Positions 1 to 15,046 of a DNA stretch of 64,000 nt are shown one piece after another. Source of the stretch: an uncultured Paracoccaceae bacterium (GTDB lineage Bacteria; Pseudomonadota; Alphaproteobacteria; Rhodobacterales; Rhodobacteraceae). Under the pieces are notes generated by a model. The model was not told the origin of the DNA. It was given only the letters and a program-made list of their open reading frames with translations, and ran no database searches. Numbering within the stretch: the first letter of the stretch is position 1; each line of letters opens with the position of its first letter. Position numbers and translations under genes: made by a program. The stretch is taken from the NCBI GenBank assembly GCA_947493335.1, contig CANLQO010000001.1, forward strand, positions 62,001-126,000, in the 5' to 3' direction.

Positions 1-3000
1 CCCGCAAAGCCGCTGCTTTCGGCGCACGCGACGCGCATGCAAACCGTCGAGCGGCAACTGCGTGCCTCGCGCGGGCGCGGCAACCCCTTGCCCGAAGGGG
101 TTCGCCAGAAAATGGAGCAGGGCCTGGGGGCTGATTTTTCCGGCGTGCGCATTCACACCGACCACCCGGCCTTTCTGATGACGCGGATGCTGAATGCCAA
201 GGCCTTCACCAGCGGGCGCGATATCTATTTTTCACCCCATCGGTTCGCACCCGGCAGTGCCAGCGGGGATCATTTGCTGGCCCATGAACTGGCCCATACG
301 CTGCAACAGGCCGCTGTCCCGGTGCGGGAAGAGGCGGTTGCCCAACGGGTCGCTGAAGAGGATCAGGTCAGCGTCCGGCCCGAGGCGCTGATGGCACTGC
401 GGGTTGCGCGCAGCCACATCGGCAAGATCAACTCAAAAATGCTGGGCGAGGACGGATATCGCATTGGTTGGAAACGACTTCTGGACATCTTTCGCACCTC
501 CTATGGGGGCGATGTTATCCATCCGGTGCTGATCAAGAAGATTGTCGCAGAGCCACATGATTTGCCGCATTGGTGTGGGGTATTTGCATGGCATGCGTTG
601 CGCAAGGCGGGCTATCCGCTGCCCAACTGGAATGCCTCTGGCCGGATGCTGGAAAACACTTTGCAGCGTCCGCCCGGCGAGCTGCCGCAGATCGGGGATA
701 TCGCTTACCGGCAAAAACTGCCGTGGATGCCGGACAGCGCGCCGTTGACCCACCATCAGGCGCTTGTGTCCGGGGTAGAGGCGCATGCAACGGCAACGGG
801 TAAGAACTTCAAACAGATCCTTGTGCGCACGGTCGATGGCAACACCGCAGGCACCAATAATCTGGGCGGTCAGGTCGAAGAATCCTGGCAACCTATCGGC
901 AATTGGGACGCCTTCTTTGACCCTGCGGGCAAGGTGCAGATGCCAGAGACCGAGCGCGTCACTGTGGACCGCTCTGATGTAGAAACCACTGTTGAACCGG
1001 CGAAGGATGATGCCCCGCAACCTCAGGCCGAGGTCGCCGCGACGGACGTGACTGATCTTGAAAAAGACGTCACGCCCGAGGCAGAAGCCTTGCCCGGGCC
1101 AGAGGCGGACGTCGCCGTCGATCTGGACCTGCCCCCTGCGGTCGAAATGGAAGCCGAGCCTGCCGCCAAGGTCGAGAAAGTCGCGCTTGACGGAAAGTCA
1201 GATGCCGCCGCAGTGGGCTTTACCAAGGCAAAACCAAGTTCCATGGCGCTTTCGGCACCTGATCTGGGCGGCGCGCTGGACGCAAAAACCCGTCAGGAGA
1301 AGAAAGAAACCGCCAAGGAAACGCCGGAGCTCAAGGCGCAAACCGGCGGCGCAGTTGATCCGGCGATCACCGCGCCGGGTGAAATTCCGGTGCCCGAGGA
1401 TGTGACGCTGAACGCCGATCAGAACGGGCCGGAAGTGGGTGAGATCAAGCCCGATCCCTACGTTGAAAAGGGCAAAGCCCCCAGTGCAGCAGGCAGCTAT
1501 ACCGGGCAGCAGATGGCCAAGCAGGCCGATGGCGGCGGATTTTTCGACTGGCTCAAGAAGCAGTTCACGAACCTGTTGAACTCAATCAAGACCGAGGACA
1601 ATAGCGTCAATACATCTGCAGGACCCAAGCAGCGCGTGGCGCTGACTGGCAAGGCCGATGTGGGTCAGATGGCGCGGCAGCGGGTCGATGGGACGGCGCG
1701 GCTTCGAGAAGAGCGTGACAGGAAGGTTGCCGATTTCAAGGGTCATCCGGGGCAATCCAATATCCAACTGCGCAAGGTGGATCAGGGATTCAAGCCCGAA
1801 CAGGCACCCGAACCGGCGGAACCGATTGATGCCTTAAGCCCGGACAGCAATGTCGCCGACTACGCGGCGGCCGAATGGCCCGCCGACTTCCGCGATGCGG
1901 CGGATGCCAAGATGAGCAAAAAGCTGGAAGGCGGCATGGCCAAGGCGCGGGCAGATGCGCAAAAGGCCGGCGCGGACCGGGACGCCGAAAAGTCCGCTGC
2001 GGTTGCCGAGGCAGAGCGCAAGACAGCCGCCGCCAATACGGCCGCCGACGACAAGCAACGACAGGCCGTCGTGGCAGGTCGAGAGGATGTGGCCCGCAAA
2101 CAAGGTGCTGCGGTGCAAGAGGCTTATGACAACGTCGCGACCTTTTCGACCGATGCTGCAGGCGAACAGACCACCAAAGGCAAGGCCATTGCAGCCGACG
2201 TCAAGCAAAGCGAGACGGATTCAGACAACAAGCTAAAAGACGGAGAGGCCGCCGCCGACAAATTGAAGACGGACGCCGAGAAAGAGGCAAAAGTCCAAAA
2301 GGCCGAGCTTGCCAAGAAGGAAAAAGAGGAAAGTTTCTGGGACAAGATCAATCCCAAAAAGATCATCTCGAAGATCATAGAGGGCATCGACAAGCTGTTC
2401 ACGGCGATGCGCAAAGCGGTCAAGGAAAAGATCGAGGAATATAAGAACAAGGCGATCAAGTTCATCAACGATGCCCGCGACCGCGCGATCAAGGGGCTGG
2501 AGGGATTTCGCACATGGGCCAAGGACAAGGTCGATACCTACGTTAAGGACCGCTATCCGGGGCTGGCAAAAGCGCTGAATGAAAAGATCGACGCAGGCGT
2601 CGACATCGCCGTGAAGGGCGTGAACGCCGCCGCCGACGGCGCAATTGATGCGGTCAACAAAATTGCCGATGGGCTCGCGGCTGCGATCGATGGTTTGCTT
2701 GCAAGGTTTCAGGCGGCACTGAAGCTTGCCGTGGGGGCGATTGGTGCTGTGCTGACGGGTGACTTCGTGGGTGCGCTGAAGCTCGCGTTTGAGGCGGGCT
2801 GCGCGCTGGCGGGCGTAAACCCCAAGCCGATCCTGGATTTCCTGGACCGGGCGGGGCAGCAGATATTGGGTATCCTCAAAAAGCCCGGCCCCTTTATCAA
2901 CAACCTCTTCAAGGCGGTTGGTCTGGGCATCCGTAATTTCGCCGAAAACTTTGTGACTCACTTCAAATCGGGCGTGATTTCATGGCTGACCGGCACGCTT

Positions 3001-4857
3001 TCGGCTGTGCCGATCACGCTGCCTGACAAGTGGGATATCAACGGGTTCTTCAGCCTTGTGGCGCAAATCCTTGGCCTGACCTATGACAACATCAAAGCGC
3101 GGATCATCAAGAAGTTCCCCAAGGCGGCCGGGGTGTTCGAGAAGATTGAGAAGGGCTGGAAGTTCGTCAAAATGCTGCTGAACCGCGACTATGCGGGGCT
3201 GTGGGCAGAGGTGAAGGCGAAACTTGCCTCGCTCAAGGACACGATCCTTGGGGCCATTCGCAACTGGACGCTGCTGAACGTCATCAAGCAGGGGGTTATG
3301 TGGCTGTTGTCGATGCTGAACCCGGCCTCTGCGATTGTGCGGCTTTTGAAGATGTTGGCCGATCTGGTGTTCTGGCTGGTCGAGAATTTCCAGCGCATCA
3401 AGGCCTTTGTCCTCAGCGTTTACGGCGCGATCACCAATATCGCGGCGGGCATCATCAAACCCGCAGCCAAGGCGGTAGAGGACGCGCTGGCGCGGGCGTT
3501 GCCAATTGTGCTGTCGTTCATTGCCTCTGCCGTGGGTGTTGATGATATCGCGGGCGCTATTCAGGGGGTGCTCAAGAAAATTCAGGCGCCGGTGAACAAG
3601 GCGATTGATGCGCTGATCGACCGGGTCGTGGCGTTTGCCAAAAAAATCATCGCAAAAGTGGTGGGTGGGGCCAAGAAGGCCGGCAAGAAAGCAAAGGATG
3701 CGGCTGTGTCGCTGCTGCGGTGGTGGACGGAGAAACGACGGTTCCGCACCAAGGACGGCGGCGATCACAAGATATACTACAAAGGCGAGGGCAAGCGCGC
3801 GGACCTCTGGATCAATTCTGACCCCAAAACCTTTCCGCAGTTTCTGGCAGAGCAAAAGACCTCGGACAATGCCGACAACAAGGCCTTGGCGATTGCGGCC
3901 GAGAAAATTTACACCAAGGGTGTTCTGGCTTCTGAAGAGAAGATGGACCAGTTGCAGGCCGAACGAAAAGCGGCCAAGGCCCGTGGCGACACGGCTGGTG
4001 AAAAAGCGGCGGCCAATGCGGTTAAGCGCGAGGTCACCAACTTCCGCAAGCAGTTGAAGTTGCTGTCGACCGAGATCGCCAAGATGACGGTTGAGGATGA
4101 TGCCGCAGCGATTACCCACACGACCTATACAGACGGCGGCCACAAGCAGGTCACGTCGCTGCCGCTGACGTTCTTGCCCGGGAAGGATAGCGGCAGTTCA
4201 CCGACAGATTCCCCCCCAGGCTGGCCGCACGCGCAAGCCATCAACGACAACGAGGGCAAGACCATCTGGATCAGGGGGCATTTGCTGAATGACAATGTGC
4301 ACGGCCCCGGCAAAACCAAAAACCTTGTTCCGATCCCGCAATCGGTCAACCGCACGATGGAAACGCAGGCGGAATCGGACGTCAAAACACGGGTTAAGAC
4401 CAACAAGGAACGGCTCTACTTTCGCGCGACGGCCACCTATTGGCCGCCCGAAATTCCAGCCACCAAGGGCTTTCCGAAAAAGATCATTCTGGTTTGGCAC
4501 AAGGCGGAAAAGAAAGGCACGAAATGGAAGAAGGGATCGCATCTGGGCACGGCGCAGTTCACATCGCCCAAGCCGCCCAAGGACGTGGACCAAAGCGTGC
4601 CGTCAATTGCCACAGATAGCCCGGCACGGCTTGAAGCCGCAATCAACACACAGACCGCCGGTGCCAAGGTCACGACCCACTTCATTGGATACCTCAAGCA
4701 GCGGACACCTTATGCCACGGCCAATGATATCCGCCCGCGCCTGATGACGGCACATACGAAATATGACAAGCTGAACCCCTCCGAGAAGGCAAATCGCGGC
4801 AAGCAGATTTACCGGACGGTCGCGGCGGTGAAAGCGAAAAAAGTAGAATTGGCCTGA
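1..4857 (+). CDS. Giant DUF4157 (eCIS-type) multidomain protein, 5' end cut by the window
   Basis: The frame is open from base 1, so the true start probably lies upstream; residue numbers here count from the first ATG at 37 (1606 aa). Residues about 16-93 match DUF4157, with the invariant HELAH zinc-protease-like motif at 83-87 and a trailing QQ. Residues about 118-300 resemble a CHAP/NlpC-like cysteine peptidase: WCGVF around C180, PQIGDI, H239/H240 and DGN near 267-269. A proline/acid-rich linker follows, then Ala/Lys/Glu coiled coil (about 620-780) and amphipathic or hydrophobic helices (about 860-1220). Near 1411-1435 is RGHLLN...HGPG...NLVPI, resembling a beta-beta-alpha metal nuclease. 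DUF4157 proteins are typical cargo or accessory proteins of extracellular contractile injection systems. The AAA+ gene starts 3 bases downstream and fits that setting. The DUF4157 call is firm; the peptidase call is likely; the nuclease call is tentative. Confidence 0.8.
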   Translation, partial: PAKPLLSAHATRMQTVERQLRASRGRGNPLPEGVRQKMEQGLGADFSGVRIHTDHPAFLMTRMLNAKAFTSGRDIYFSPHRFAPGSASGDHLLAHELAHTLQQAAVPVREEAVAQRVAEEDQVSVRPEALMALRVARSHIGKINSKMLGEDGYRIGWKRLLDIFRTSYGGDVIHPVLIKKIVAEPHDLPHWCGVFAWHALRKAGYPLPNWNASGRMLENTLQRPPGELPQIGDIAYRQKLPWMPDSAPLTHHQALVSGVEAHATATGKNFKQILVRTVDGNTAGTNNLGGQVEESWQPIGNWDAFFDPAGKVQMPETERVTVDRSDVETTVEPAKDDAPQPQAEVAATDVTDLEKDVTPEAEALPGPEADVAVDLDLPPAVEMEAEPAAKVEKVALDGKSDAAAVGFTKAKPSSMALSAPDLGGALDAKTRQEKKETAKETPELKAQTGGAVDPAITAPGEIPVPEDVTLNADQNGPEVGEIKPDPYVEKGKAPSAAGSYTGQQMAKQADGGGFFDWLKKQFTNLLNSIKTEDNSVNTSAGPKQRVALTGKADVGQMARQRVDGTARLREERDRKVADFKGHPGQSNIQLRKVDQGFKPEQAPEPAEPIDALSPDSNVADYAAAEWPADFRDAADAKMSKKLEGGMAKARADAQKAGADRDAEKSAAVAEAERKTAAANTAADDKQRQAVVAGREDVARKQGAAVQEAYDNVATFSTDAAGEQTTKGKAIAADVKQSETDSDNKLKDGEAAADKLKTDAEKEAKVQKAELAKKEKEESFWDKINPKKIISKIIEGIDKLFTAMRKAVKEKIEEYKNKAIKFINDARDRAIKGLEGFRTWAKDKVDTYVKDRYPGLAKALNEKIDAGVDIAVKGVNAAADGAIDAVNKIADGLAAAIDGLLARFQAALKLAVGAIGAVLTGDFVGALKLAFEAGCALAGVNPKPILDFLDRAGQQILGILKKPGPFINNLFKAVGLGIRNFAENFVTHFKSGVISWLTGTLSAVPITLPDKWDINGFFSLVAQILGLTYDNIKARIIKKFPKAAGVFEKIEKGWKFVKMLLNRDYAGLWAEVKAKLASLKDTILGAIRNWTLLNVIKQGVMWLLSMLNPASAIVRLLKMLADLVFWLVENFQRIKAFVLSVYGAITNIAAGIIKPAAKAVEDALARALPIVLSFIASAVGVDDIAGAIQGVLKKIQAPVNKAIDALIDRVVAFAKKIIAKVVGGAKKAGKKAKDAAVSLLRWWTEKRRFRTKDGGDHKIYYKGEGKRADLWINSDPKTFPQFLAEQKTSDNADNKALAIAAEKIYTKGVLASEEKMDQLQAERKAAKARGDTAGEKAAANAVKREVTNFRKQLKLLSTEIAKMTVEDDAAAITHTTYTDGGHKQVTSLPLTFLPGKDSGSSPTDSPPGWPHAQAINDNEGKTIWIRGHLLNDNVHGPGKTKNLVPIPQSVNRTMETQAESDVKTRVKTNKERLYFRATATYWPPEIPATKGFPKKIILVWHKAEKKGTKWKKGSHLGTAQFTSPKPPKDVDQSVPSIATDSPARLEAAINTQTAGAKVTTHFIGYLKQRTPYATANDIRPRLMTAHTKYDKLNPSEKANRGKQIYRTVAAVKAKKVELA

Positions 4858-4860
4858 TCC

Positions 4861-6213
4861 ATGACCTCCCAAACGCCCATCTTCGCTCCTTCGAACGCCG
4901 ACAACCTGGATACTGCGTTTGAGATGATTGCCCGCCTGATCCGTAGCCGGTTGGGTGGCGAAGACATTGCACCCGACGGCACGGTCGGGCTTGAATATTT
5001 CGATGACAACTCGCCCTTGGGAAACTTTCTGCGCGACCGGGAGCCACCGTTTGCCGAATACATAACGCTGCTGCTTGCGCTGGCCCCTCATGCGCGACCT
5101 ACGCTGATTGACGCGGAAATCCGCGCAATTCTGGACAAGGGTGGCGACTTCCCGGAGGTGGGCGGGCTGCGCGACCCCGACAGCCGGACCTTTCTGCCCA
5201 CAGGGCAGACAGTCGCCTTTTTGCTGGCGGGCGATGATCTTGAGGGGCGCTTTGTCGTCCAGCGCATCTTGTCACCCGATCATTGGTTCGCCCGCGAGGG
5301 CATCCTGCGGCTGGAGCCCGCGAAAGACGGCGCACCGGCGCTGTCTGGTCGGTTGATCCTTGCGCGGGACTGGGTTGATCGACTGACACTGGGCGAGACG
5401 AGCGCGCCGCCCTTTTCGGCCGAATTTCCCGCCCGCCGGATTGAGACACAGTTGGGGTGGGATGATCTTGTCCTGCCCGCAGGTACGCAGGCGCATCTTT
5501 CGGAGATACTGGATTGGGTGCAGCATTTTGGAACGCTTTCCGCCGACTGGGGATTGAAGGCGCGTTTGCGTCCGGGTTACCGCGCTCTCTTTCATGGTGC
5601 ATCCGGCACCGGCAAGACGTTTGCGGCGACCCTGATTGGCAAGACCACCGGGCGAGAGGTCTTTCGCGTTGACCTTTCGGCGGTCGTTTCAAAGTACATT
5701 GGCGAAACCGAAAAGAACCTCGCCAACCTTTTCACGATTGCGCAGGATCGGAATTGGATCCTGTTCTTTGATGAGGCCGACGCGCTGTTTGGCAAACGAA
5801 CCAATGTCAAGGACAGCCATGACCGCTATGCCAATCAAGAGGTCAGCTATTTGCTACAGCGGATTGAGGAATGTGACGCGCTTTGCATCCTTGCGTCCAA
5901 CCTGCGGGCCAATATCGACGACGCCTTTCTGCGCCGGTTCAACGCCGTGATCCGGTTCCCTGAACCCGGTGCCGCCGAACGGCAAAGTATCTGGCGGCGG
6001 GCGCTCCCGCTTGAACATCTGTCCGACGAAGTGATTGATCTGGTCTGTCCCTACGAACTTACCGGCGGCTCCATCGTGAACGTCGCCCAGTTTGCCGCGA
6101 TCAATGCACTGACCCGCGGAGAGCGCGAGGTCGGGCTGCAAGATCTCGAACTTGGCATCCGCCGCGAGATTGAAAAAGAGGGCAAAGTTTTTCGGAGCCT
6201 CAATGCGTCCTAA
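4861..6213 (+). CDS. AAA+ ATPase, injection-system-associated type
   Basis: A 450-aa protein with an N-terminal alpha/beta region (about 1-200) and a classical AAA module. Walker A is GASGTGKT at 246-253 and Walker B is ILFFDEAD with D304/E305. Sensor-1-like ILASN and arginine-finger-like FLRRFN follow, then a C-terminal helical lid. The start lies 3 bases after the stop of the DUF4157 gene, which suggests one transcript. AAA+ ATPases of this kind regularly sit beside DUF4157 proteins in extracellular contractile injection system loci (the Afp15/Pvc15-like component). No sheath, tube or baseplate gene is visible downstream, so any structural genes would have to lie upstream of the window. ATPase identity is firm; the injection-system role is inferred from context. 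Confidence 0.85.
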   Translation: MTSQTPIFAPSNADNLDTAFEMIARLIRSRLGGEDIAPDGTVGLEYFDDNSPLGNFLRDREPPFAEYITLLLALAPHARPTLIDAEIRAILDKGGDFPEVGGLRDPDSRTFLPTGQTVAFLLAGDDLEGRFVVQRILSPDHWFAREGILRLEPAKDGAPALSGRLILARDWVDRLTLGETSAPPFSAEFPARRIETQLGWDDLVLPAGTQAHLSEILDWVQHFGTLSADWGLKARLRPGYRALFHGASGTGKTFAATLIGKTTGREVFRVDLSAVVSKYIGETEKNLANLFTIAQDRNWILFFDEADALFGKRTNVKDSHDRYANQEVSYLLQRIEECDALCILASNLRANIDDAFLRRFNAVIRFPEPGAAERQSIWRRALPLEHLSDEVIDLVCPYELTGGSIVNVAQFAAINALTRGEREVGLQDLELGIRREIEKEGKVFRSLNAS

Positions 6214-6308
6214 CCAGAGGGATTATCATTTGGGGATCGGGGCAAGTTTGACTATCGTGATGACCGATTGGTCCAGCGATTAAAGTGACAGAAATAAAGG
6301 AAATTTTC

Positions 6309-8837
6309 ATGGGTGAGCCCAAGGCCAACGACCCCAATGCCGCCGCAGCGCATGTTTTTCTGACAGAGCTTTCGACCCGCATCGCGACCCAACGGCTCCA
6401 CTTCAGCGAAGGGGACGAGGCCGCAGCCCTTGCGAGCCTTCACGCGCTTTTCGGTGTCGCACGCAAGACGATCACGGATCATTTCGGGTGCGAGGATTTC
6501 GCGCGTGAAACGCTGGGGTTTCTCAACGGACCGTTTCGGTCCTTTATGGCCGATTGGCACCGCAAAAGCCTTGCGGGCCTTCTGAATACCCGGGATGGCG
6601 CGGTTGCGTTCCGGGCCGAGCTGCGCGCGCAACAGGACAAGATGCGCGTCTTTGCCGCGACACTGCATCAGATGGCATATGGAACCGCGATGCCGCCCTT
6701 TCCGCCAGACCGTGACCCTCAGCAACCGCCGCGCGATACGTTGGCCTTTGGCATCCCCGATGATGGTGTGATCCCATCGGGCAGCATGGTCGAGCAGATC
6801 AACCGTTCTGAGGCGGAGGCAATTGCAAAGCGCCGCGAAAAAGTCGCGACCTCTGCGCCCGATGCGGACGGAATTACCAATGCTGCCGGGCTTGCGCTGT
6901 CAGGTGGTGGAATCCGATCCGCCAGTTTCTGTCTTGGCGTGTCGCAGGTGTTGTCGGCCCGGGCAGGTATCATGAACAGCTTTGATCTGATGTCGACGGT
7001 CAGCGGTGGCGGTTTTACCGGGTCATTCCTGACCCGCCGCATTGCCGATCAGGGAGTGGAGGCCGTAGCACGCCCCAACGGGCCGGACACCGATGCAGTG
7101 AAATACCTGCGACAACGGGCCAATTACCTCTCTATGGGCAGCTTCATCAAGACCAGCGCCATCGCGATGAACCTGCTGGCGGGCATGGTCCTGAACTGGA
7201 CCGCGCCTGCAGCAATTATCGCGGTGATCACACTTTTATTGCACCTGCTTGGTGTTTCAGGCTGGGATACGTTCTTTGGTCTTTTGCCGGTGGTCGGAGG
7301 TGCCTGCCTTTTGGCGGCGCTTTTGTCCTACGCCTGGGTGCCTTACCGCTGGGGGGCGGTGCGGATCGCGGCACTCTGGGGGTTCTTTCTGCTGACCGGT
7401 GCATTCTTCCTGATCTATGGCATTCACCTATTCTACGGCGCATTCCTGACGATCCTGCAGGGCCAGAAACTGACCGCAACGCTGTCGTTGGCGGCACTTG
7501 CCGCAGCAGGTCCAGCCTTGTCGCGCGTGTTGCCGATGCTGGGCAAAGAGCGGGCGCGGATCATCGGCGTGCGCATCCTGTTGATCATCGCCTCGATCGC
7601 GGTGCCGTTTCTGGCGCTTATCGTGGGTTGCATGTTGTTCTATTTGGGCCATGTCCCGGGCGAGAAACTGCCCGCTTTCTTTGGTGCCATCGGGATCAGA
7701 TCGGGTTTGTGGCTTTTGGCGGTGATTGCGCTTGCGCTTGTGTTGACCACGCTTTTGACGCTCAACATCAATGCCACCGGGCCGCATTGGCTTTATCGAC
7801 AGCAGATTGCCAACACTTTCATTCGCCTTGGCCCGACGGGAGAAGTGGACGTTCCGCTTTCATCGCTCGACCCCGAGCACAAGGCCCCATATCTGTTGAT
7901 CAACGCGGTCACCAATCTGCCGACCAGTGACCGGATCGAAATGCGCGAACGGCAAGGCGACTTCTTTCTATTCTCCAAACATTGGTGCGGCTCTCCGCTT
8001 GTTGGGTATCACCCCACAGCCCATTGGCGTCACTGGCGCAATCAAGAGGTCGATCTGGCCACAGCCGTTGCGACGTCGGGCGCAGCCGTGGCACCCCATA
8101 TGGCGCTGTTGTCGGTATCTTCGGCCCGCGCGTTGCTGTCCTTTCTGAACTTGCGGCTGGGCTTCTGGCTGCGCCGTCCTGCGCCCGAGGGTGAAAAGGC
8201 CACCGGCGGACGGCCCGGCGCGCGGATGCTAATGCGCGAGATGTTTGCACTGAAGATGGACGAAACGCAGGACTGGATGATGCTGACCGATGGCGCGCAT
8301 CTGGACAATTCAGCGATCTATGAGTTGCTACGCCGCCGCTGCAAGCACATCGTAGCGGTTGACGCCAGTGCGGACCCCAATGGCAGTTTTGACACCATCC
8401 TGACCCTGCTGCGCCACGCTGCGGTGGACCTTGGTGTGCGCATTCATGCTGACCTGAAAGAACTACGCCCTGATGCAGAAACGGGCCTGACGCGGGCGCA
8501 TGGCGTCATGTGCGAAATCGATTATCCGGCGGTCGATGGCCGGCCTGCTGGCAAGGGGCTGCTCTTGTTGATCAAGCTTTCGATGACGGGGGACGAGAAC
8601 GAATTGATCAACGCCTACAGACACGCCCACCCCGAATTTCCAAATCAATCGACGATTGACCAGTTCTTTGACGAACACCAGTTCGAGGCGTTCCGCCAGT
8701 TGGGCGTACATGCCGCCGAAAGCCTTTTCAAAGAGGCGCTGATTGGTGCCGGTGAGGTCGACGATGTCGCAAGTTGGCTAGAGCGGCTTTATTTGCGCAT
8801 TCCACCGCAGACCGACGCGACTATTTCGTCTCAATGA
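6309..8837 (+). CDS. Patatin-like phospholipase with an inserted membrane region
   Basis: I chose the ATG at 6309 (842 aa) because AAAGGA lies 7 bases upstream; an in-frame GTG at 6285 is an alternative. Residues about 198-206 give the patatin oxyanion loop GGGIRSASF. The nucleophile elbow is STVSGGGF with Ser near 231, and the dyad Asp is in TDGAHLDN near 660. Between elbow and Asp, residues about 285-485 hold roughly six to seven hydrophobic segments, so the catalytic halves are separated by a membrane domain. Patatins hydrolyse acyl ester bonds of membrane lipids and act as effectors in several bacterial defence and toxin systems. The gene follows the AAA+ gene by 95 bases and overlaps the convergent membrane-protein gene by 17 bases. 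Confidence 0.8.
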   Translation: MGEPKANDPNAAAAHVFLTELSTRIATQRLHFSEGDEAAALASLHALFGVARKTITDHFGCEDFARETLGFLNGPFRSFMADWHRKSLAGLLNTRDGAVAFRAELRAQQDKMRVFAATLHQMAYGTAMPPFPPDRDPQQPPRDTLAFGIPDDGVIPSGSMVEQINRSEAEAIAKRREKVATSAPDADGITNAAGLALSGGGIRSASFCLGVSQVLSARAGIMNSFDLMSTVSGGGFTGSFLTRRIADQGVEAVARPNGPDTDAVKYLRQRANYLSMGSFIKTSAIAMNLLAGMVLNWTAPAAIIAVITLLLHLLGVSGWDTFFGLLPVVGGACLLAALLSYAWVPYRWGAVRIAALWGFFLLTGAFFLIYGIHLFYGAFLTILQGQKLTATLSLAALAAAGPALSRVLPMLGKERARIIGVRILLIIASIAVPFLALIVGCMLFYLGHVPGEKLPAFFGAIGIRSGLWLLAVIALALVLTTLLTLNINATGPHWLYRQQIANTFIRLGPTGEVDVPLSSLDPEHKAPYLLINAVTNLPTSDRIEMRERQGDFFLFSKHWCGSPLVGYHPTAHWRHWRNQEVDLATAVATSGAAVAPHMALLSVSSARALLSFLNLRLGFWLRRPAPEGEKATGGRPGARMLMREMFALKMDETQDWMMLTDGAHLDNSAIYELLRRRCKHIVAVDASADPNGSFDTILTLLRHAAVDLGVRIHADLKELRPDAETGLTRAHGVMCEIDYPAVDGRPAGKGLLLLIKLSMTGDENELINAYRHAHPEFPNQSTIDQFFDEHQFEAFRQLGVHAAESLFKEALIGAGEVDDVASWLERLYLRIPPQTDATISSQ

Positions 8838-10494
8838 TGTCGATCTGGTTGAGTGGCTGCAGCGCCTCAGTCCTGTCAATCTGCTTTTGTGGCAGATCGG
8901 ACTTTGCCGGCGGATCTGGAAACCAACGATATTCCAGCTGGAATTTGACGACAGTCGCGTCCCGGCTTTGGACGTCGCTTGAGACAATCGGGTCGTCACC
9001 ACCAAAGTAATCGCCAAGCGTGTCGATGAAATAGAACATCAATTGGTTGATCCCGACTTTCGCATCAGTCAGGTCGGCATAGACGACAAGCTCACCCTCA
9101 AGCTGTTTTTCGGTTTCGAACTCTTCGAATTGGTCGCGCCATTTATCAATTTTCTGTCCGTCGACGTAAAGCACCGCGTCCCAATTGGGGTTGGGGAACA
9201 ATCCTTCAACAAAGATTTCCAATGTCCCATCGGTTGGCAACTGTAGCCGCACCCTTTCGTGCAGATCAATCTTGAGGTTTCCGACAGAGGACTTGCTCTG
9301 CGGAAGCTCGATCGGTTCTGACTGGCGCTCTAACCGCTCCAATCTTTCGCCGGGCTTCAGCCCGATCACCGCTATAAATGAAAAGCCCACCGCAGCGAGT
9401 GCGCCCCAGCGGATCAGGTGGCGCGTGAACCGGCGTGGGTCGGTCGGGATTTGCGGGGTCAGGTTGCCTCGAATGCCAATCCGCAGCGCCAGAAAGATTG
9501 CGGCAGGCAGGCAAATCGCCAAATACGGCCCCATCATGAAGACGGACAGGTCAGAGTGGAACAGAAAATCGCCGAAGGTTGCCGTGTTTTCGCCCAGCGT
9601 AATCAGCCAAGCGGCCAGCCCGTAATAGATCACAAGTGTACCCACAGCGATTAAACAGAGCAGCGCCATGTAAACCAAGCGGTCTGTGATTTCGGATCGT
9701 ACAGCCAGTGCCAGCCGCACCAGCATCAGCGGAACGATCACGAACAAGGAAAATTGAGCGTAGGCCTCGGACGGCATGCGCTCTCCCAGGATCACCTGCA
9801 AAAGCAGCCAATAGACCACAACCAACAGGAACAGCCCGTAAGTGAGAATCTGGCGCGCATCGATCACCGCGGCGGAGCTTTTTCGAAAAGAGATCGACGG
9901 CGGGAGCATGATCAGCCCCAAAGGGAAAAACCCGACGATACCCGTGATGAACCCGATGGAGCCCATCAAGATGAAAAGGTCATCATCCGGGCTGCGCACA
10001 AGGAAGATGAACAGCGCCATCGCGATGATCTGCGACAGGCCAAAAGCCACCCAGATGTGTCGGTTCAGCAAGCGGGACAGAATGCCATAGCCGCTTTGCG
10101 ATGACAGCAATAGCCGACGGTTCAGTCGGCCGGAATTCAGCGTCTCGCGCCACCAACTGCCCACCGCGTGCCACAGGGAAGTGTCGGTGGCTTTTGCGAT
10201 CAGATCTGCACTGCGAAACCACTTGAGCGCATTTCGACGGTTCATTTTCTTGTTGTGAAGCTGGGTTGCTGTTGCCTGTAGCGGGCGCAATAGGTCGGTG
10301 TCTTGCGCAGCTAGCTCTGCTATCGCCGCGTCATTGACCTGCGGATCATCCTCTTCCGTGGCCAACTGCAGCAAAAGCTCTGCGGCTTCTTCGCTGTGCG
10401 CGGCCGACAACGCCTTGGTCAGATGAATGCGGACTGCGGGATCATCGTGATCAATGTAGTGTTTGAGTATCTCAAAGGCGGGGGTCTGGGTCAT
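8821..10494 (-). CDS. HEAT-like multi-pass membrane protein of the TIR-SIR2/nSTAND operon
   Basis: A 557-aa protein with three parts. Residues about 1-75 are short helical repeats rich in DDP(A/Q)V turns, resembling HEAT or PBS-lyase repeats. Residues about 145-385 hold around seven hydrophobic segments. The C-terminal 170 residues are hydrophilic and beta-rich, ending in a Pro/Gln-rich tail. I do not recognise the family. The start overlaps the stop of the nSTAND gene by 4 bases (ATGA), so it is probably translationally coupled and the last gene of a three-gene operon. A membrane effector or anchor is a reasonable guess from this position, since many STAND-based systems end in a membrane-acting component. 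No catalytic motif was seen. Confidence 0.6.
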   Translation of the reverse strand: MTQTPAFEILKHYIDHDDPAVRIHLTKALSAAHSEEAAELLLQLATEEDDPQVNDAAIAELAAQDTDLLRPLQATATQLHNKKMNRRNALKWFRSADLIAKATDTSLWHAVGSWWRETLNSGRLNRRLLLSSQSGYGILSRLLNRHIWVAFGLSQIIAMALFIFLVRSPDDDLFILMGSIGFITGIVGFFPLGLIMLPPSISFRKSSAAVIDARQILTYGLFLLVVVYWLLLQVILGERMPSEAYAQFSLFVIVPLMLVRLALAVRSEITDRLVYMALLCLIAVGTLVIYYGLAAWLITLGENTATFGDFLFHSDLSVFMMGPYLAICLPAAIFLALRIGIRGNLTPQIPTDPRRFTRHLIRWGALAAVGFSFIAVIGLKPGERLERLERQSEPIELPQSKSSVGNLKIDLHERVRLQLPTDGTLEIFVEGLFPNPNWDAVLYVDGQKIDKWRDQFEEFETEKQLEGELVVYADLTDAKVGINQLMFYFIDTLGDYFGGDDPIVSSDVQSRDATVVKFQLEYRWFPDPPAKSDLPQKQIDRTEALQPLNQIDIIETK

Positions 10495-12479
10495 GACGGC
10501 ACCGGCTCTGGTTCTGCAACGGCATCAGTGAAGTCACGATAGACTGTGAACAGCCGCGCATAGTCTTCACGTTGCAACCCACGCTGCAAAGCCGCGTGCA
10601 TCAGCAAGTCAAGCGCCTCTGCGTCCCAGGCGCAGCGGTCAGCGTTGTCGATCAAAGCAAGCACGGCATTGCTGGTCAGATTTTCGGCACGCTTTTCCAA
10701 CGCAGGGGCGTGGGTGTCGTGACTATGTCCCATGGCGCTGGCGGCGGTGCGTTGGGCATAGCGAAAGACCTGCTCGGCGCTGTTGACGTGTTCGACAATT
10801 TCCTTTTGCAAAGGGGCAATCAAAAATTCATGTGCGATTTCAATGAACTGACTGCCCATGCGGGCTTCTTTTCGGACAATGCCATTGTTTTGCATCACCC
10901 CAATCAGACGGCTCCGCTTGTTTGTGTCTCGTAAGGCACCACCGACAAGCGTCTTGTATTCGACGACATTCCGTTTGCTGCTTTGGGTAAGCAAATCCGA
11001 CAGCATGTCGAGGATTTCGAGTTGATCGGATTTGTCGAAATCATAAAGGATTTCCTTGAAGTAATCGCGCTGGATGCTGACCGTTCCGCCGGTCTGCTCC
11101 ATGAAATCATCAAATGACACCTTTGGAACTTCGACATTGCCGCCGCGCTTGAGGTCTTTCCCAAAAAGCCGCCAAATCTTCTCACAGACGATCTGGATGT
11201 GCGCGGGCTCTACAAACCGGTTTTCCTTTTTCAGTGCACCGATGATTTCGTCGTAAATCTGCGGTTCATAGTCGTAGCCAAAGGCTTGCGCGGGCAGTTG
11301 GATCGCGCGGCGCGCGTCCGAAACCGTCAAAAAATCCAGCCGGTATTGCGATGTGTCGCGCGCTGGTGCCAAGGGCGGCACCGAGGCAAGCTGCCCGACG
11401 TATTCATCGCGCATCGAAAGGACCACTGAGATTGGCAAAATCTCTTGGCTGCGCTGGGCCGGTGCGAGAAGGCGGCGCAATTCATCAAAGAAACTTGGCC
11501 GCAGCCGCCAATCGGGTTTTTCAAGATCTTCGGCGGCGTCCTGGCCCGCCTTTTCGGCGTCGTCGGTGTAGAGCGTAAAGATTTGCTCGAACTGGTCGAT
11601 CACAAGGCAAAGCGCAAATCCTGACTGTTTGCGGGCCCATTTGCGCCAGAAGTTTCGAAAGAATTGCACAAAGCCAAATTCCGGCAAATCCAGCTCATCG
11701 AGCCATTCACGATGCGCCGCGCGCGCATGAGCCGAGGACAAGAGCGTGTGGATCTCGTGCAGCGGGGCGCCTTTCCAAAGATCGTCGTGGATGTCCTGTC
11801 CGATCTGGTCAAAACAAAAGAATGTCGCCAGATGCTGCCAATAGGACCGGACATCCATGGTCCCGCCCAGCAGTTTGCAGAACAGCGGAGTCGTACGCCC
11901 GCCACGGTATCGGTAGGGGTCGAGCCAGAGTTTCTTGACCTCAAACGCGGCCAGTAGATTGCGCCGGACCGGGTCTTCGCTGTGAATGTCGTCAAACCGG
12001 TCAAGCACATCCTCAATCGGTGAATCCGCAAGTTCAGGCGCATATTCAAGCATCGCCGCAATGGCTGCTGCCTCGCATTCAGGGGGTGGGATCAACTGCA
12101 GGATCGAGGCGACGCGCACAGCTTCGAGCGGGTCACTTTGAGGCGTCAATCGCACGGTGTGCAATCCGGTTTCTTCGATCCGGGGAATGACCCGAGCGTT
12201 CAGGATTGAGGTTTTCCCGGCACCCGATTGCGCGTGGAGCAGGCACAGACGGCCCTTGAGAAACAGCGACGACATTTCACGCTCTTCCTGATCACGGCCA
12301 AAGAATAGCGGCGAGTCCTCGAACTGGTAGCTGTCGGTGCCCTTGTAAGGTTCATCGCCAACGGTGGTGCGTGAAAACTCCAATTGGAAATCGCTGGCGG
12401 TTTCACCGTAACCCTGCGGCGGGTTGGCCAAGGCGTCCAAGCGTCTTTTGGTCGGGCTTTCTGTTGCCGCGTCTTCCAT
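10491..12479 (-). CDS. nSTAND-type P-loop NTPase
   Basis: A 662-aa protein. After a short N-terminus, the sequence SPLFFGRDQEEREMSSLF leads into the P-loop AQSGAGKTS at 83-91. Walker B is LCLVIDQFEQIF near 290-301, followed by the acidic-aromatic stretch common in the nSTAND1 group (an FxGR entry, then a DQFEE-like Walker B). The C-terminal 300 residues are helical (winged-helix-like plus arm) and end in a Pro/Glu tail. STAND NTPases act as ATP-driven sensor switches that release a linked effector. The gene starts 2 bases after the TIR-SIR2 stop and overlaps the membrane-protein gene by 4 bases. The NTPase assignment is firm; a defence or regulated-death role is inferred from the neighbours. 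Confidence 0.78.
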   Translation of the reverse strand: MEDAATESPTKRRLDALANPPQGYGETASDFQLEFSRTTVGDEPYKGTDSYQFEDSPLFFGRDQEEREMSSLFLKGRLCLLHAQSGAGKTSILNARVIPRIEETGLHTVRLTPQSDPLEAVRVASILQLIPPPECEAAAIAAMLEYAPELADSPIEDVLDRFDDIHSEDPVRRNLLAAFEVKKLWLDPYRYRGGRTTPLFCKLLGGTMDVRSYWQHLATFFCFDQIGQDIHDDLWKGAPLHEIHTLLSSAHARAAHREWLDELDLPEFGFVQFFRNFWRKWARKQSGFALCLVIDQFEQIFTLYTDDAEKAGQDAAEDLEKPDWRLRPSFFDELRRLLAPAQRSQEILPISVVLSMRDEYVGQLASVPPLAPARDTSQYRLDFLTVSDARRAIQLPAQAFGYDYEPQIYDEIIGALKKENRFVEPAHIQIVCEKIWRLFGKDLKRGGNVEVPKVSFDDFMEQTGGTVSIQRDYFKEILYDFDKSDQLEILDMLSDLLTQSSKRNVVEYKTLVGGALRDTNKRSRLIGVMQNNGIVRKEARMGSQFIEIAHEFLIAPLQKEIVEHVNSAEQVFRYAQRTAASAMGHSHDTHAPALEKRAENLTSNAVLALIDNADRCAWDAEALDLLMHAALQRGLQREDYARLFTVYRDFTDAVAEPEPVPS

Positions 12480-12481
12480 GG

Positions 12482-14209
12482 TCAGGCAGACCGCGCCAGA
12501 CGGGCCGCGTCTGCCGCATTCAATTCCGCCTCCAGCGCCTTGAGGAAGACCTCTTGACCTGGCGGCAATTCAATCAAGTTCAACGTGCTAGCGTGGTGGC
12601 GCAGATTGTCCTGCATATCCTCTTCCAGCCGCATCAGCCATCCATCACGGCTGCGGCTCTTGAGCCCTTCACGTTCACGGGGCACCAGATATCGGTTGAT
12701 CCGGCTTGACGTAAACGGACCGCGCCAGACCACCTCGGCGGCCTGTTGCACTTCGGTCAGGAGGAACGAATTGCCAAACAAGACCGAGGGCGAAATTCGC
12801 AACCGTTCCTCGATGGCTGCGGGCACAAGATCGTCGATCCGGGTCAGTTCGAACAACTGCTCTGTGTTAACCACGCAACTGCCGTAAACATCGATGGAGC
12901 CATGATACTTGAACAGGATGCACCCTTCGAAGTCATCGAAACTCAGACCCTTGGGAGTGACCGGGCGCGCGTAGTCCTCGCCTCCTCGGCCATGAGCGCT
13001 GTGGCCCTGACCACGGCTCACCGATTGCACTGCGGCTTCCTCCAGAAAGGCCAGCGCTTCTTCCTCGGCATGAGGATCGTCGCGCGACAGGATGCGCGGC
13101 TGACTGTCGGGATCAAAAGCATCGCTTAGGACAATGGTGCCGTTTTGCACTGCAGATCCGATGCTTTGCACTTCCAGCCGGTTGGGCAAGTTCACGGTGA
13201 TGCGTGTGAATGGCACACCATTGCAGATCATGTGCCATTCAAGATTTGTGCCAAAATTGGTTGTAAAGATCATCGGCGCGGGTCGGCGCTTGCGCCGGGA
13301 CGCTTCGCTGCTGTCAAGCAATTGCCGCAGCACCTTGGCAAACCGGTCATAGAATTGATTGTTCTGCTGACGCCGGATTTGCAGCACCTCTTGCAGCCGC
13401 GATTGCACCATTTGCGGGCCGCTTGTGCTCATGCAAAGCCAACTGGCCACCAATTCCAGTGGCAACCTGTTGGAGACATCATCAAGCGACAATTCATCGC
13501 CCTTTTGCATCAGCAATTGTGCGACGTCCCACGGGCTGGGTTCGCCGAATTCCTGATTTGATATTTCATGCGTTTCCTCCGTCTCGGATGCGGGAGGAGC
13601 TTCGATTCCGGTCAATGGTCCGATAAGGAAATTCAACCCGAATTGCCGCGCGTCCCGACGCAATTGTTGCGCAATCGGGCGGAAAGGGTCCTGCCCACCC
13701 GATGTCGGGGCGGGCGCTGCGGCTGCAATCGGAACTGCCGCGGGTGCATCGGGTTCTGGCGCGGTCTCAGTGGCCCGTTGAGGATAGCCCTTTTCCTCGC
13801 GGATGCGGTCAACCATGTCCAAGAGTTTCTTGACCGGTTTCGTGTCTTCCAGGGTCGCAAAGGTGATCGCGGGAAAGCCACGAAATACCGTTGTGCGGTC
13901 CGCTGGCGTGGCCCCCGGCAGGATGACCGTGACCAGCGCTCCTTCCGACAGGACGTGGTTGTTGAACGCGATGTCCATTTCAACCTTGTGATAACGGCTC
14001 ACACCGTTGGGCCCCCAACAGCCGACAAAAACCAATGTCTTGGGCAATACCTCGTCAATCACTGCGCCAGCAATTTGATCGGGGGGCAGGTCGTCGTCAT
14101 CAAAGAATACTTTGCAGCCGTGACCTTCAAGTGTGCGGCAAAGCTCTCGTATTGCTGGTTTTTCCAGCGAATTGTGCGAAAGAAAAATATCAAAGAAATC
14201 GTCAGTCAT
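12482..14209 (-). CDS. TIR domain fused to SIR2-like domain
   Basis: A 575-aa protein from the ATG at 14209; an in-frame TTG at 14230 would add 7 residues. Residues 1-145 form a TIR domain: FDIFLSHNS at 6-14, a central GPNGVSRYHKVEMD segment with the probable catalytic Glu77, and alternating strands. After an Ala/Pro linker (about 145-200) comes a SIR2-like domain: SWLCMS, FTTNFGTNLE near 313-322, FKYHGSID near 432-439, and an SVLFGNSF end motif. Both fold types can cleave NAD in bacterial immune proteins, so this chain may hold two NAD-consuming units or one sensor and one effector. It is the first gene of a coupled operon with the nSTAND NTPase. The domain calls rest on motifs seen by eye. 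Confidence 0.78.
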   Translation of the reverse strand: MTDDFFDIFLSHNSLEKPAIRELCRTLEGHGCKVFFDDDDLPPDQIAGAVIDEVLPKTLVFVGCWGPNGVSRYHKVEMDIAFNNHVLSEGALVTVILPGATPADRTTVFRGFPAITFATLEDTKPVKKLLDMVDRIREEKGYPQRATETAPEPDAPAAVPIAAAAPAPTSGGQDPFRPIAQQLRRDARQFGLNFLIGPLTGIEAPPASETEETHEISNQEFGEPSPWDVAQLLMQKGDELSLDDVSNRLPLELVASWLCMSTSGPQMVQSRLQEVLQIRRQQNNQFYDRFAKVLRQLLDSSEASRRKRRPAPMIFTTNFGTNLEWHMICNGVPFTRITVNLPNRLEVQSIGSAVQNGTIVLSDAFDPDSQPRILSRDDPHAEEEALAFLEEAAVQSVSRGQGHSAHGRGGEDYARPVTPKGLSFDDFEGCILFKYHGSIDVYGSCVVNTEQLFELTRIDDLVPAAIEERLRISPSVLFGNSFLLTEVQQAAEVVWRGPFTSSRINRYLVPREREGLKSRSRDGWLMRLEEDMQDNLRHHASTLNLIELPPGQEVFLKALEAELNAADAARLARSA

Positions 14210-14250
14210 GAGAAATTCCGCCACCGACAAAAGAGATAATAAAAAATTAA

Positions 14251-14279
14251 ATGGTACGAAGGATACGCAAAAAATTCAA
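14251..14279 (-). promoter_or_regulatory. Candidate sigma-70 promoter of the TIR-SIR2 operon
   Basis: Reading the - strand, TTGAAT (14274-14279) and TACCAT (14251-14256) are separated by 17 bases, and lie about 40 bases before the ATG in an AT-rich stretch. This is a plausible housekeeping promoter based on consensus matching only. Confidence 0.4.
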
Positions 14280-14328
14280 GTGTTTCGGCTTTTTGGAACA
14301 TGAAGGTCAGTTGTGACCACGCATGAAA

Positions 14329-14358
14329 AAAGGACCGGCGCGTTTGCACCGGTCCTTT
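14329..14358 (-). terminator. Rho-independent terminator of the puc operon
   Basis: A perfect 10-bp stem (AAAGGACCGG with CCGGTCCTTT) encloses a 10-base loop. On the - strand it is followed by a run of T, 22 bases after the last puc-operon gene. It also separates that operon from the TIR-SIR2 promoter. Confidence 0.8.
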
Positions 14359-14380
14359 GTCATTGCTTCGGCGGGTTGGC

Positions 14381-15046
14381 CTAGCTGACGGTTTTCATTC
14401 CGAACATGCGTGAGAACGGGAAGCCGCCACCGGGGATGACCTTTTTGTGGCGCGGCTTGGTCGACAGCAGTTTGCCGGGCCAGAACATCTGCGACATGTA
14501 GCGCCCACCGCTGATAACAGACGATGACCGGGATTTGCGCGATATCAGCTTGCCGGGCCAGAATTTGGCCGACATCGGGTTGTTGTGCTTCAGATCGCGC
14601 TTGCGCCGATGCTCTTTGAGAAGCCGAAGGCCGAACTCAGAGGATACCGGGCCGCGCGGCGCAGGCACCGGAAGTGACAGGATAAGCGGATGATCCTTGA
14701 GCACGCTGCGGGCCTTTTCGGGCTTGCCGGGGACAAAGAAATCCTCGGTCACGTTGCCTGCGTCGATGGTGTCTCGCTTGGCAAGAATGTCGCGGGTCAT
14801 CTGGGCCGCGCCAAGTGGCTTATAAGTCGTCCGGACGACCAGCACCGCATTTCCTGCTGCGAGCGCCTTGCTATAGGCCGCGATGGCATCGGGATGCACC
14901 TGCGCGCGCTGCATCCGCGCCTCGGCCTTGTCACTGGCGACGATGACATCGCAGGCCCGTTTGGGCACACCTTTGAACTGCAACCGGTCCGCGGCACTTT
15001 GCGCGGCCGCCTGATCGGGCATTAGGCGGGTGATAATCGTTGTCAT
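14381..15046 (-). CDS. Last gene of the LH2 operon, PucD/PucE-like protein with tandem repeats (tentative)
   Basis: A 221-aa basic protein whose ATG overlaps the pucC stop by 4 bases, so it belongs to the puc operon. The N-terminal 120 residues look like a soluble alpha/beta stress-protein-like fold beginning MTTIITRL. The C-terminus carries two adjacent 26-residue repeats at 158-183 and 184-209 that share 14 positions, including FWPGKL, a later VI and a GG pair; a shorter third copy (MFGMK) may end the protein. In Rhodobacter-type puc operons pucC is followed by small proteins (PucD, PucE) that stabilise LH2. The position suggests that role, but I could not confirm homology. No transmembrane segment is obvious. 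Confidence 0.55.
   Translation of the reverse strand: MTTIITRLMPDQAAAQSAADRLQFKGVPKRACDVIVASDKAEARMQRAQVHPDAIAAYSKALAAGNAVLVVRTTYKPLGAAQMTRDILAKRDTIDAGNVTEDFFVPGKPEKARSVLKDHPLILSLPVPAPRGPVSSEFGLRLLKEHRRKRDLKHNNPMSAKFWPGKLISRKSRSSSVISGGRYMSQMFWPGKLLSTKPRHKKVIPGGGFPFSRMFGMKTVS

Follow-up and report, generated by a model that had tools for sequence, protein, structure and literature searches.

In bacterial immunity, SIR2 and TIR domains are both well known as NADase effectors; they usually occur as alternatives to each other, or in separate proteins. The described systems closest to the locus reported here are of three kinds. The nSTAND1-centred conflict systems are treated in part of Kaur and others (eLife 2021; PMC8195603), where the sections concerned describe an nSTAND1 NTPase switch with TIR among the effector domains. 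In those sections nSTAND1 is the central NTPase of the STAND-FGS systems, with fused EADs or effectors, while SIR2 belongs to another system, GreA/B-C. In Avs5 (SIR2-nSTAND3-repeats), as set out in the relevant parts of PMC12931631, a STAND NTPase of the nSTAND3 type controls a SIR2_2 domain within one chain that ends in C-terminal repeats. Thoeris, in the portions of PMC7272460 that describe its components, has TIR and SIR2 in one locus, as ThsB (TIR) and ThsA (SIR2-SLOG).

The locus lies in a 64,000-base stretch of DNA, here called the window (G000:C1:62001-126000, in a 4.05-Mb assembly). An earlier note, made from the sequence alone, had described three genes on the - strand, the first two separated by 2 bases and the last two overlapping by 4, and the coordinates of the open reading frames (ending at 12482, 10491 and 8821) agree with this. 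The gap occupies 12480-12481 and the overlap 10491-10494. The genes, in order of transcription, and the intergenic stretch in front of them are as follows.

14210..14380, no strand: intergenic stretch 5' of the operon, delimited by DNA comparison with same-genus genomes
12482..14209, - strand: TIR-SIR2 fusion gene, 575 aa (ORF and Pfam)
10491..12479, - strand: nSTAND1 NTPase gene, 662 aa (ORF and Pfam)
8821..10494, - strand: gene for a HEAT and seven-segment membrane protein (HEAT-7TM), 557 aa (ORF, Pfam and hydropathy)

A P-loop STAND NTPase thus adjoins an NAD-linked effector in one operon, which is the layout of a STAND-gated NADase module. The earlier note had held that the set matches neither Thoeris nor Avs, and this is borne out. 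Compared with the systems in the sections of PMC8195603 cited above, the effector, the switch and HEAT-7TM each have a gene of their own here, and the effector joins TIR to SIR2. Compared with Avs5, the genes are again separate, the NTPase is nSTAND1, no repeats are matched, and a TIR domain and a membrane protein are added; effector, STAND and repeat sensor do not form the single chain that characterizes Avs, and there is no PADLOC match named Avs. Compared with Thoeris, TIR and SIR2 are in one chain, with an nSTAND1 switch and a membrane partner. No ThsA model (SIR2 plus SLOG/STALD) in the 2023 copy of the PADLOC models matches the window protein at E<=1, and in place of a separate ThsB gene the TIR domain is fused, with weak matches to ThsB models (best E 0.0011). 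For the three proteins together, the best matches are also weak, with E 1.9e-4 in PADLOC and 5.7e-4 in NCBIfam. Among the papers listed by literature searches, none describes a TIR-SIR2/nSTAND1/HEAT-7TM layout in its title or the opening of its abstract, and a description may exist elsewhere. As judged from its domains, the operon appears to be a new variant of the STAND-gated NADase conflict systems.

The operon and its setting in the genome

The TIR-SIR2 gene is read from an ATG at 14209, with 'ggtggcgg' immediately 5' of it; the list of open reading frames also offers a longer version from a TTG at 14230. A scan for promoters and terminators gave results no better than shuffled sequence. 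The GC content of the three genes is 0.553-0.570, against 0.611-0.629 for the right-hand neighbours and 0.593 for the whole window.

The right-hand neighbour genes are kept in five same-genus genomes at 74-79% identity. DNA homology to these genomes begins at 14381-14400 in four of them and at 14686 in one. The left flanks of the five have no long mutual match, except in one pair that is 98% identical, and some of these relatives match the window's assembly again at about C1:18.8-26 kb. Neither TIR-SIR2 nor HEAT-7TM was found in the five genomes.

The TIR-SIR2 protein

The TIR domain is above the Pfam cut-off (TIR_2, residues 8-129, 38.9 bits against 28), as the earlier note had proposed. It extends over approximately 13823-14188, and Glu77 is kept, which we take to be the catalytic Glu of TIR. 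The homologue from a second genome (locus L009, described below) is also above the TIR_2 cut-off, and E77 is invariant in both proteins. The domain thus has the conserved Glu expected of a TIR NADase.

The SIR2-like region occupies approximately 12710-13642, with limits set by eye, and leaves about 75 residues C-terminal of it (also by eye). Here the proposal of the earlier note holds by way of the homologue: SIR2_2 scores 29.6 bits in L009 against a cut-off of 24.5, whereas the window protein itself, at 13.3 bits, falls below it. A profile search of the PDB gave a SIR2 chain alone, with E 1.7. A match to DUF4123 in the same region (17.4 bits, below its cut-off of 25.8) was rejected. The AlphaFold2 model is too poor to test the fold (pLDDT 35).

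The SIR2 motifs read GPLTG (197-201), TTNFG (316-320) and YHG (435-437) in the window protein. The first two read GPFTG and TTNFG in L009. Both proteins therefore lack GAGxS and the Asp of TTNxD, which according to the part of PMC12931631 on these motifs are characteristic of all known sirtuins. N318 and H436-G437, the catalytic Asn and His-Gly, are invariant in the two. In Avs5 the HG may read NG and still work, as stated in the same part of PMC12931631.

The earlier note had counted two NAD-linked domains in this chain. That description fits the TIR domain, with its Glu, better than the SIR2 domain, which has lost two of its motifs in both homologues. Because of this combination, TIR is likely to be the enzyme of the fusion, and SIR2 is more likely to be a ligand-binding or regulatory part than an enzyme. 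SIR2 may have reduced or altered catalysis and perhaps binds a ligand; since the Asn and HG are retained, some activity could persist.

The nSTAND1 NTPase and the HEAT-7TM protein

The second gene product is a STAND-type NTPase, as the earlier note had said, with an nSTAND1 score of 121.7 bits (Pfam cut-off 27.1). By eye, the Walker A motif is SGAGKTS at residues 85-91, and there is a Walker B-like VIDQFE at about residues 293-298. No Pfam repeat family was matched at the C-terminus. Plasmid relatives were found in 36 records, none of which covers 80% of the protein. A profile search of 299 genomes of the phylum at E<=1e-10 gave no further genome, and the second genome described below was not in that result. 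One nSTAND1 locus in Nostoc (L046) has no TIR-SIR2 or HEAT partner by annotation, and a Caballeronia locus (L128) has a single chain annotated as TIR with nSTAND1 and WD40.

The third protein has a HEAT_2 match limited to residues 6-62 (31.6 bits, cut-off 27.7, Pfam), followed by seven hydrophobic segments in residues 147-378, where overlapping hydropathy windows at 209-237 were counted as one. This agrees with the HEAT-like, seven-segment membrane protein of the earlier note. The inter-segment loops contain 2, 2 and 5 Lys plus Arg residues on the side proposed to be inside, against 1, 1 and 0 on the side proposed to be outside, which is consistent with an inside position of the HEAT part. The C-terminal stretch of about 180 residues is predicted to be outside, although five Lys plus Arg in the first 25 residues past the last segment argue against that position. 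The single-sequence AlphaFold2 model is again poor (pLDDT 47). We found no support for the suggestion in the earlier note that this protein damages the membrane; its seven segments and C-terminal stretch would better suit an anchor or sensor. There is no match to it in plasmids, and among 101 relatives it was found in its own genome and in the second genome, together with a weak match in G006 that has internal stops.

A second genome with the same three genes

The earlier note had called for a survey of gene neighbours, and this shows that the three genes occur together in one further genome, a distant alphaproteobacterial MAG with 7% contamination (G067). The locus (G067:C789, or L009) is contig JAPULJ010000809.1, 5,644 bases long, in which the G067 stretches are present with identical sequence. 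Its genes are as follows.

1171-2802: TIR-SIR2 gene
2812-5100: nSTAND1 gene
5084 to contig end: HEAT gene, cut

The gene order of the window is kept, the first two genes being 9 bases apart and the last two overlapping by 17. Identity between the two loci is 39-40% for TIR-SIR2, 46% for nSTAND1 and 26% for HEAT over the cut protein. The TIR-SIR2 match is nearly full length, with E 5.4e-98. HEAT_2 scores 25.3 bits in L009, just under the cut-off of 27.7, and because the gene is cut by the contig end, the seven segments and outer domain are unconfirmed there. The three genes adjoin a methyltransferase gene.

The set is rare. The TIR-SIR2 protein was found in three genomes among 101 relatives, namely its own, G067 and G076, the last over query residues 6-95 only. 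A two-row TIR-SIR2 profile matched 8 of 385 genomes of the class, with the SIR2 part matched only in the window's own genome and G067, and 5 of 292 genomes of the order, with the SIR2 part matched only in its own. A single-protein scan of a collection of genome contigs gave no relative, while an alignment-based pattern scan of the collection, which reaches only relatives that have one of two short motifs, gave one, JAPULJ010000809.1. A plasmid DNA search gave no relative; a plasmid protein search with TIR-SIR2 gave two records, for the TIR part only; and viral contigs searched with the nSTAND and TIR-SIR2 alignments gave none. Among the genomes searched, two carry the full set. Since the order and the near-contact of the genes recur in G067, their association is more than chance. 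It is concluded that the three genes are a real set, conserved between families, yet rare in the genomes searched.

Other SIR2, TIR and nSTAND1 loci

The SIR2 motifs were compared in the 30 SIR2_2 loci listed out of 46 matches, from 33 of 190 genomes of the class, using loose patterns on the strand and frame of each match. GxGx[S/T] is present in 24 of these 30 loci, and [T/S]xNxD and HG in 26 each. All three patterns are absent from three (L071, L072 and L077), so loss of SIR2 motifs is not peculiar to the family described here.

One of these, L077 (G184:C394), encodes a 408-residue fusion in the reverse order, SIR2-TIR, with scores of 43.7 bits for SIR2_2 and 40.6 for TIR_2. It lies directly upstream of an nSTAND1 gene (80.6 bits) that is cut by the contig end. 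Its SIR2 part has GPHSS, lacks TTN, and has YG in place of HG, while its TIR part retains the E at the usual place (by eye). Plasmid pB of Ensifer adhaerens (L047) has an nSTAND1 gene (117.3 bits) preceded, at a distance of 110 bases, by a separate SIR2 gene (73.2 bits). PADLOC ThsA models match the SIR2 parts of both loci, with 39.2 bits in L077 and 60.5 in L047. As in the window operon, the gene immediately 5' of nSTAND1 encodes an NAD-linked effector in both loci, but no HEAT-7TM gene was recognised in either, and the domain order of L077 is reversed.

Within flanks of about 1.5 kb of the 30 SIR2_2 loci and 28 of 30 nSTAND1 loci, SIR2 lies beside nSTAND1 only in G184, G067 and the window's own genome. 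The pairing of an NAD-linked effector with nSTAND1 is therefore recurrent, though seldom seen. Plasmid SIR2 matches from Enterococcus and Vibrio adjoin TIR genes in a Thoeris-like manner and were set aside. SIR2 matches from Bradyrhizobium and Nitratireductor are downstream of a NUDIX gene.

The eCIS cluster and the patatin-like gene

Two features to the left of the operon had not been reported by the earlier note. An eCIS cluster on the + strand runs through G000:C1:30001-62600 (L001, L002) and window 1-6213, and a patatin-like gene follows it. The genes that fall within the window are as follows.

37..4857, + strand: eCIS_core gene, 99.9 bits, with its frame open to window base 1
4861..6213, + strand: AAA ATPase gene of the eCIS cluster, with homologues in the G006 and G330 eCIS stretches
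6285..8837, + strand: membrane patatin-like gene, 850 aa from GTG 6285 (ORF, motifs and a Pfam match below cut-off)

The order of the cluster is sheath, gp19 tube, CIS_tube, spike, gp25, baseplate J (below cut-off), tape measure, eCIS_core and AAA ATPase. The eCIS_core protein has a match to Endonuclea_NS_2 below threshold (23.4 bits against 27), and the AAA ATPase scores 105 bits against the PADLOC IetA models. Upstream of the sheath gene there are a second, ordinary patatin (63 bits, L001:10114-11418, +) and an Exo_endo_phos gene (L001:11229-12443). The eCIS_core and AAA ATPase genes are regarded as neighbours and are not assigned to the operon. The cluster is rare in the class, where 3 of 385 genomes, the window's own included, have a CIS_TMP match over the cut-off, and in the fragmented G067 MAG there is no match to CIS_TMP or CIS_tube. 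At E<=1e-3, neither the three operon proteins nor the patatin was found in the other eCIS stretches examined, a small sample (60 kb of C12 and 40 kb of C8 in G006, 38 kb in G330 and 13 kb in G254). For these reasons the adjacency of the operon to the eCIS cluster is probably incidental.

The patatin-like gene begins 71 bases after the AAA gene, in the direction of the eCIS genes. Its start is more likely to be the ATG at 6309, which is preceded by AAGGA, than the GTG at 6285. Its 3' end and that of the HEAT gene, on opposite strands and tail to tail, have 17 bases in common. The protein has an N-terminal domain (approximately 6330-6722), five hydrophobic segments, and the motifs SGGGIRS, STVSGGG and TDGAHLDN. 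All 11 aligned patatins, this one among them, have SGGGxRSA, VSGGG and DG[A/G]H. Its Pfam score of 23.8 bits is below the cut-off of 27.7, which its relative in L131 passes with 35.8. As a query it matched 40 plasmid records, none covering 80%; its Mesorhizobium relative matched 36, of which three, L131, L132 and L133, itself among them, cover 80%.

In a tree of 11 sequences, the window patatin groups with these three, its closest plasmid relatives among those found, with FastTree support of 1.0. A Pfam-confirmed TIR gene adjoins the patatin in all three of these loci. In L131 there are ThsB_TIR genes upstream (73.7 bits, with one small gene between) and downstream (75.6 bits), in L132 the ThsB_TIR neighbour is divergent (78.7 bits), and in L133 the TIR gene is directly upstream (37.4 bits). 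No TIR match lies within 8 kb of the patatin in any of the seven more distant loci that served as controls (L134-L140; 0 of 7), which come from the 12 distant records listed out of 40 matches. The TIR profile used to scan the 8-kb flanks was trained partly on L131 and L132, and the Pfam matches are an independent check.

Pfam has no match to the N-terminal domain of the patatin at E<=0.1, and none of the three operon proteins contains this domain. On a contig from a viral collection (L141, 7264-8384), a ThsB_TIR gene (70.1 bits) is directly followed by this domain standing alone, in a 169-residue frame. The domain seems to be a TIR-linked module. Possibly the patatin is a fourth component of the system; it is a better candidate for membrane damage than the HEAT protein. 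Small proteins next to the TIR genes of the Mesorhizobium and Sinorhizobium plasmids (L131:4790-5410, L131:7149-7790 and L132:4046-4696) have a common GFAPNPF stretch near the N-terminus, and are possibly a family of TIR partners. None of the papers listed by literature searches describes a phospholipase arm of TIR signalling in its title or the opening of its abstract.

Discussion

The reading that we favour, with confidence a little better than even, is that the three genes form one acquired conflict module, of a suicide or anti-invader kind, in which HEAT-7TM acts through nSTAND1 on NAD cleavage by TIR, with a pseudo-SIR2 in a regulatory role. HEAT-7TM would lie in the inner membrane, with its HEAT repeats inside and one domain outside, and would hold or inform the nSTAND1 NTPase. 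Damage to the envelope could act as the trigger, or else a protein that is injected or comes from a phage. Once triggered, nSTAND1 would change its nucleotide state and oligomerise, and so bring TIR domains together, and the clustered TIR domains would cleave NAD. The SIR2 part would serve not as a second NADase but as a pseudo-enzyme, binding NAD or ADP-ribose and controlling or assembling TIR.

As an alternative, if TIR and SIR2 were both active NADases, the result would be a redundant depletion of NAD that phages would find hard to block. The retention of Asn318 and His436 in both homologues is in keeping with this, given that N112A and H152A each abolish NAD cleavage by ThsA in the experiments described in part of PMC7272460. 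Set against it are the loss of GAGxS and of the TTNxD Asp from both homologues, the finding (in the part of PMC12931631 on PaAvs5) that D112A, at the same Asp of TTNxD, abolishes immunity, and the L077 fusion, where even TTN and HG are gone; we consider two active enzymes unlikely. A system of four genes with two arms, in which a TIR NAD-derived signal activates a membrane-digesting patatin and nSTAND1 with HEAT-7TM forms the trigger, is a possibility that we hold tentatively. It would account for the TIR neighbours of all three close patatin relatives, against none in the distant loci, for the stand-alone N-terminal domain after a TIR gene in L141, for the tail-to-tail contact with the operon, and for the absence of the patatin from the examined G006, G330 and G254 eCIS stretches. 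However, the patatin gene runs against the operon and in the direction of the eCIS genes, so that it could belong to these; the TIR neighbours of its relatives are mostly ThsB_TIR and not TIR-SIR2, and in L131 a small gene intervenes upstream; the controls are 7 of 12 distant records; and only one locus with the three genes has a readable patatin context, the G067 contig having ended.

Another reading takes operon and patatin together as eCIS accessories, serving, for example, in immunity, in the control of firing or in self-killing of the kind reported for Streptomyces CIS. The operon directly adjoins the cluster, and the accounts of other CIS that we drew on, in part, describe a need for membrane partners or the death of the cell. 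Nevertheless, the further alphaproteobacterial eCIS stretches that were searched gave no match to any of the four proteins, and the second set of three genes adjoins a methyltransferase gene in a fragmented MAG without an eCIS match, which makes this reading improbable. A more elaborate version of the four-gene system is a membrane immune circuit, in which HEAT-7TM, as a receptor with an outer domain, acts through nSTAND1 to assemble TIR, and the NAD-derived TIR product, held or read by the pseudo-SIR2, turns on the patatin with its TIR-linked N-terminal domain, leading to phospholipid digestion and death. This we regard as doubtful; if true, a phospholipase effector would be coupled to TIR signalling by way of a membrane receptor.

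A chain with an intact-looking TIR and a motif-stripped SIR2 is found beside nSTAND1 in two families, with opposite domain orders, an indication that SIR2 domains can be retained to read NAD or ADP-ribose. A HEAT-7TM partner would bring STAND sensing to the membrane, and the patatin, with its link to TIR, hints that TIR signalling has a phospholipase arm.
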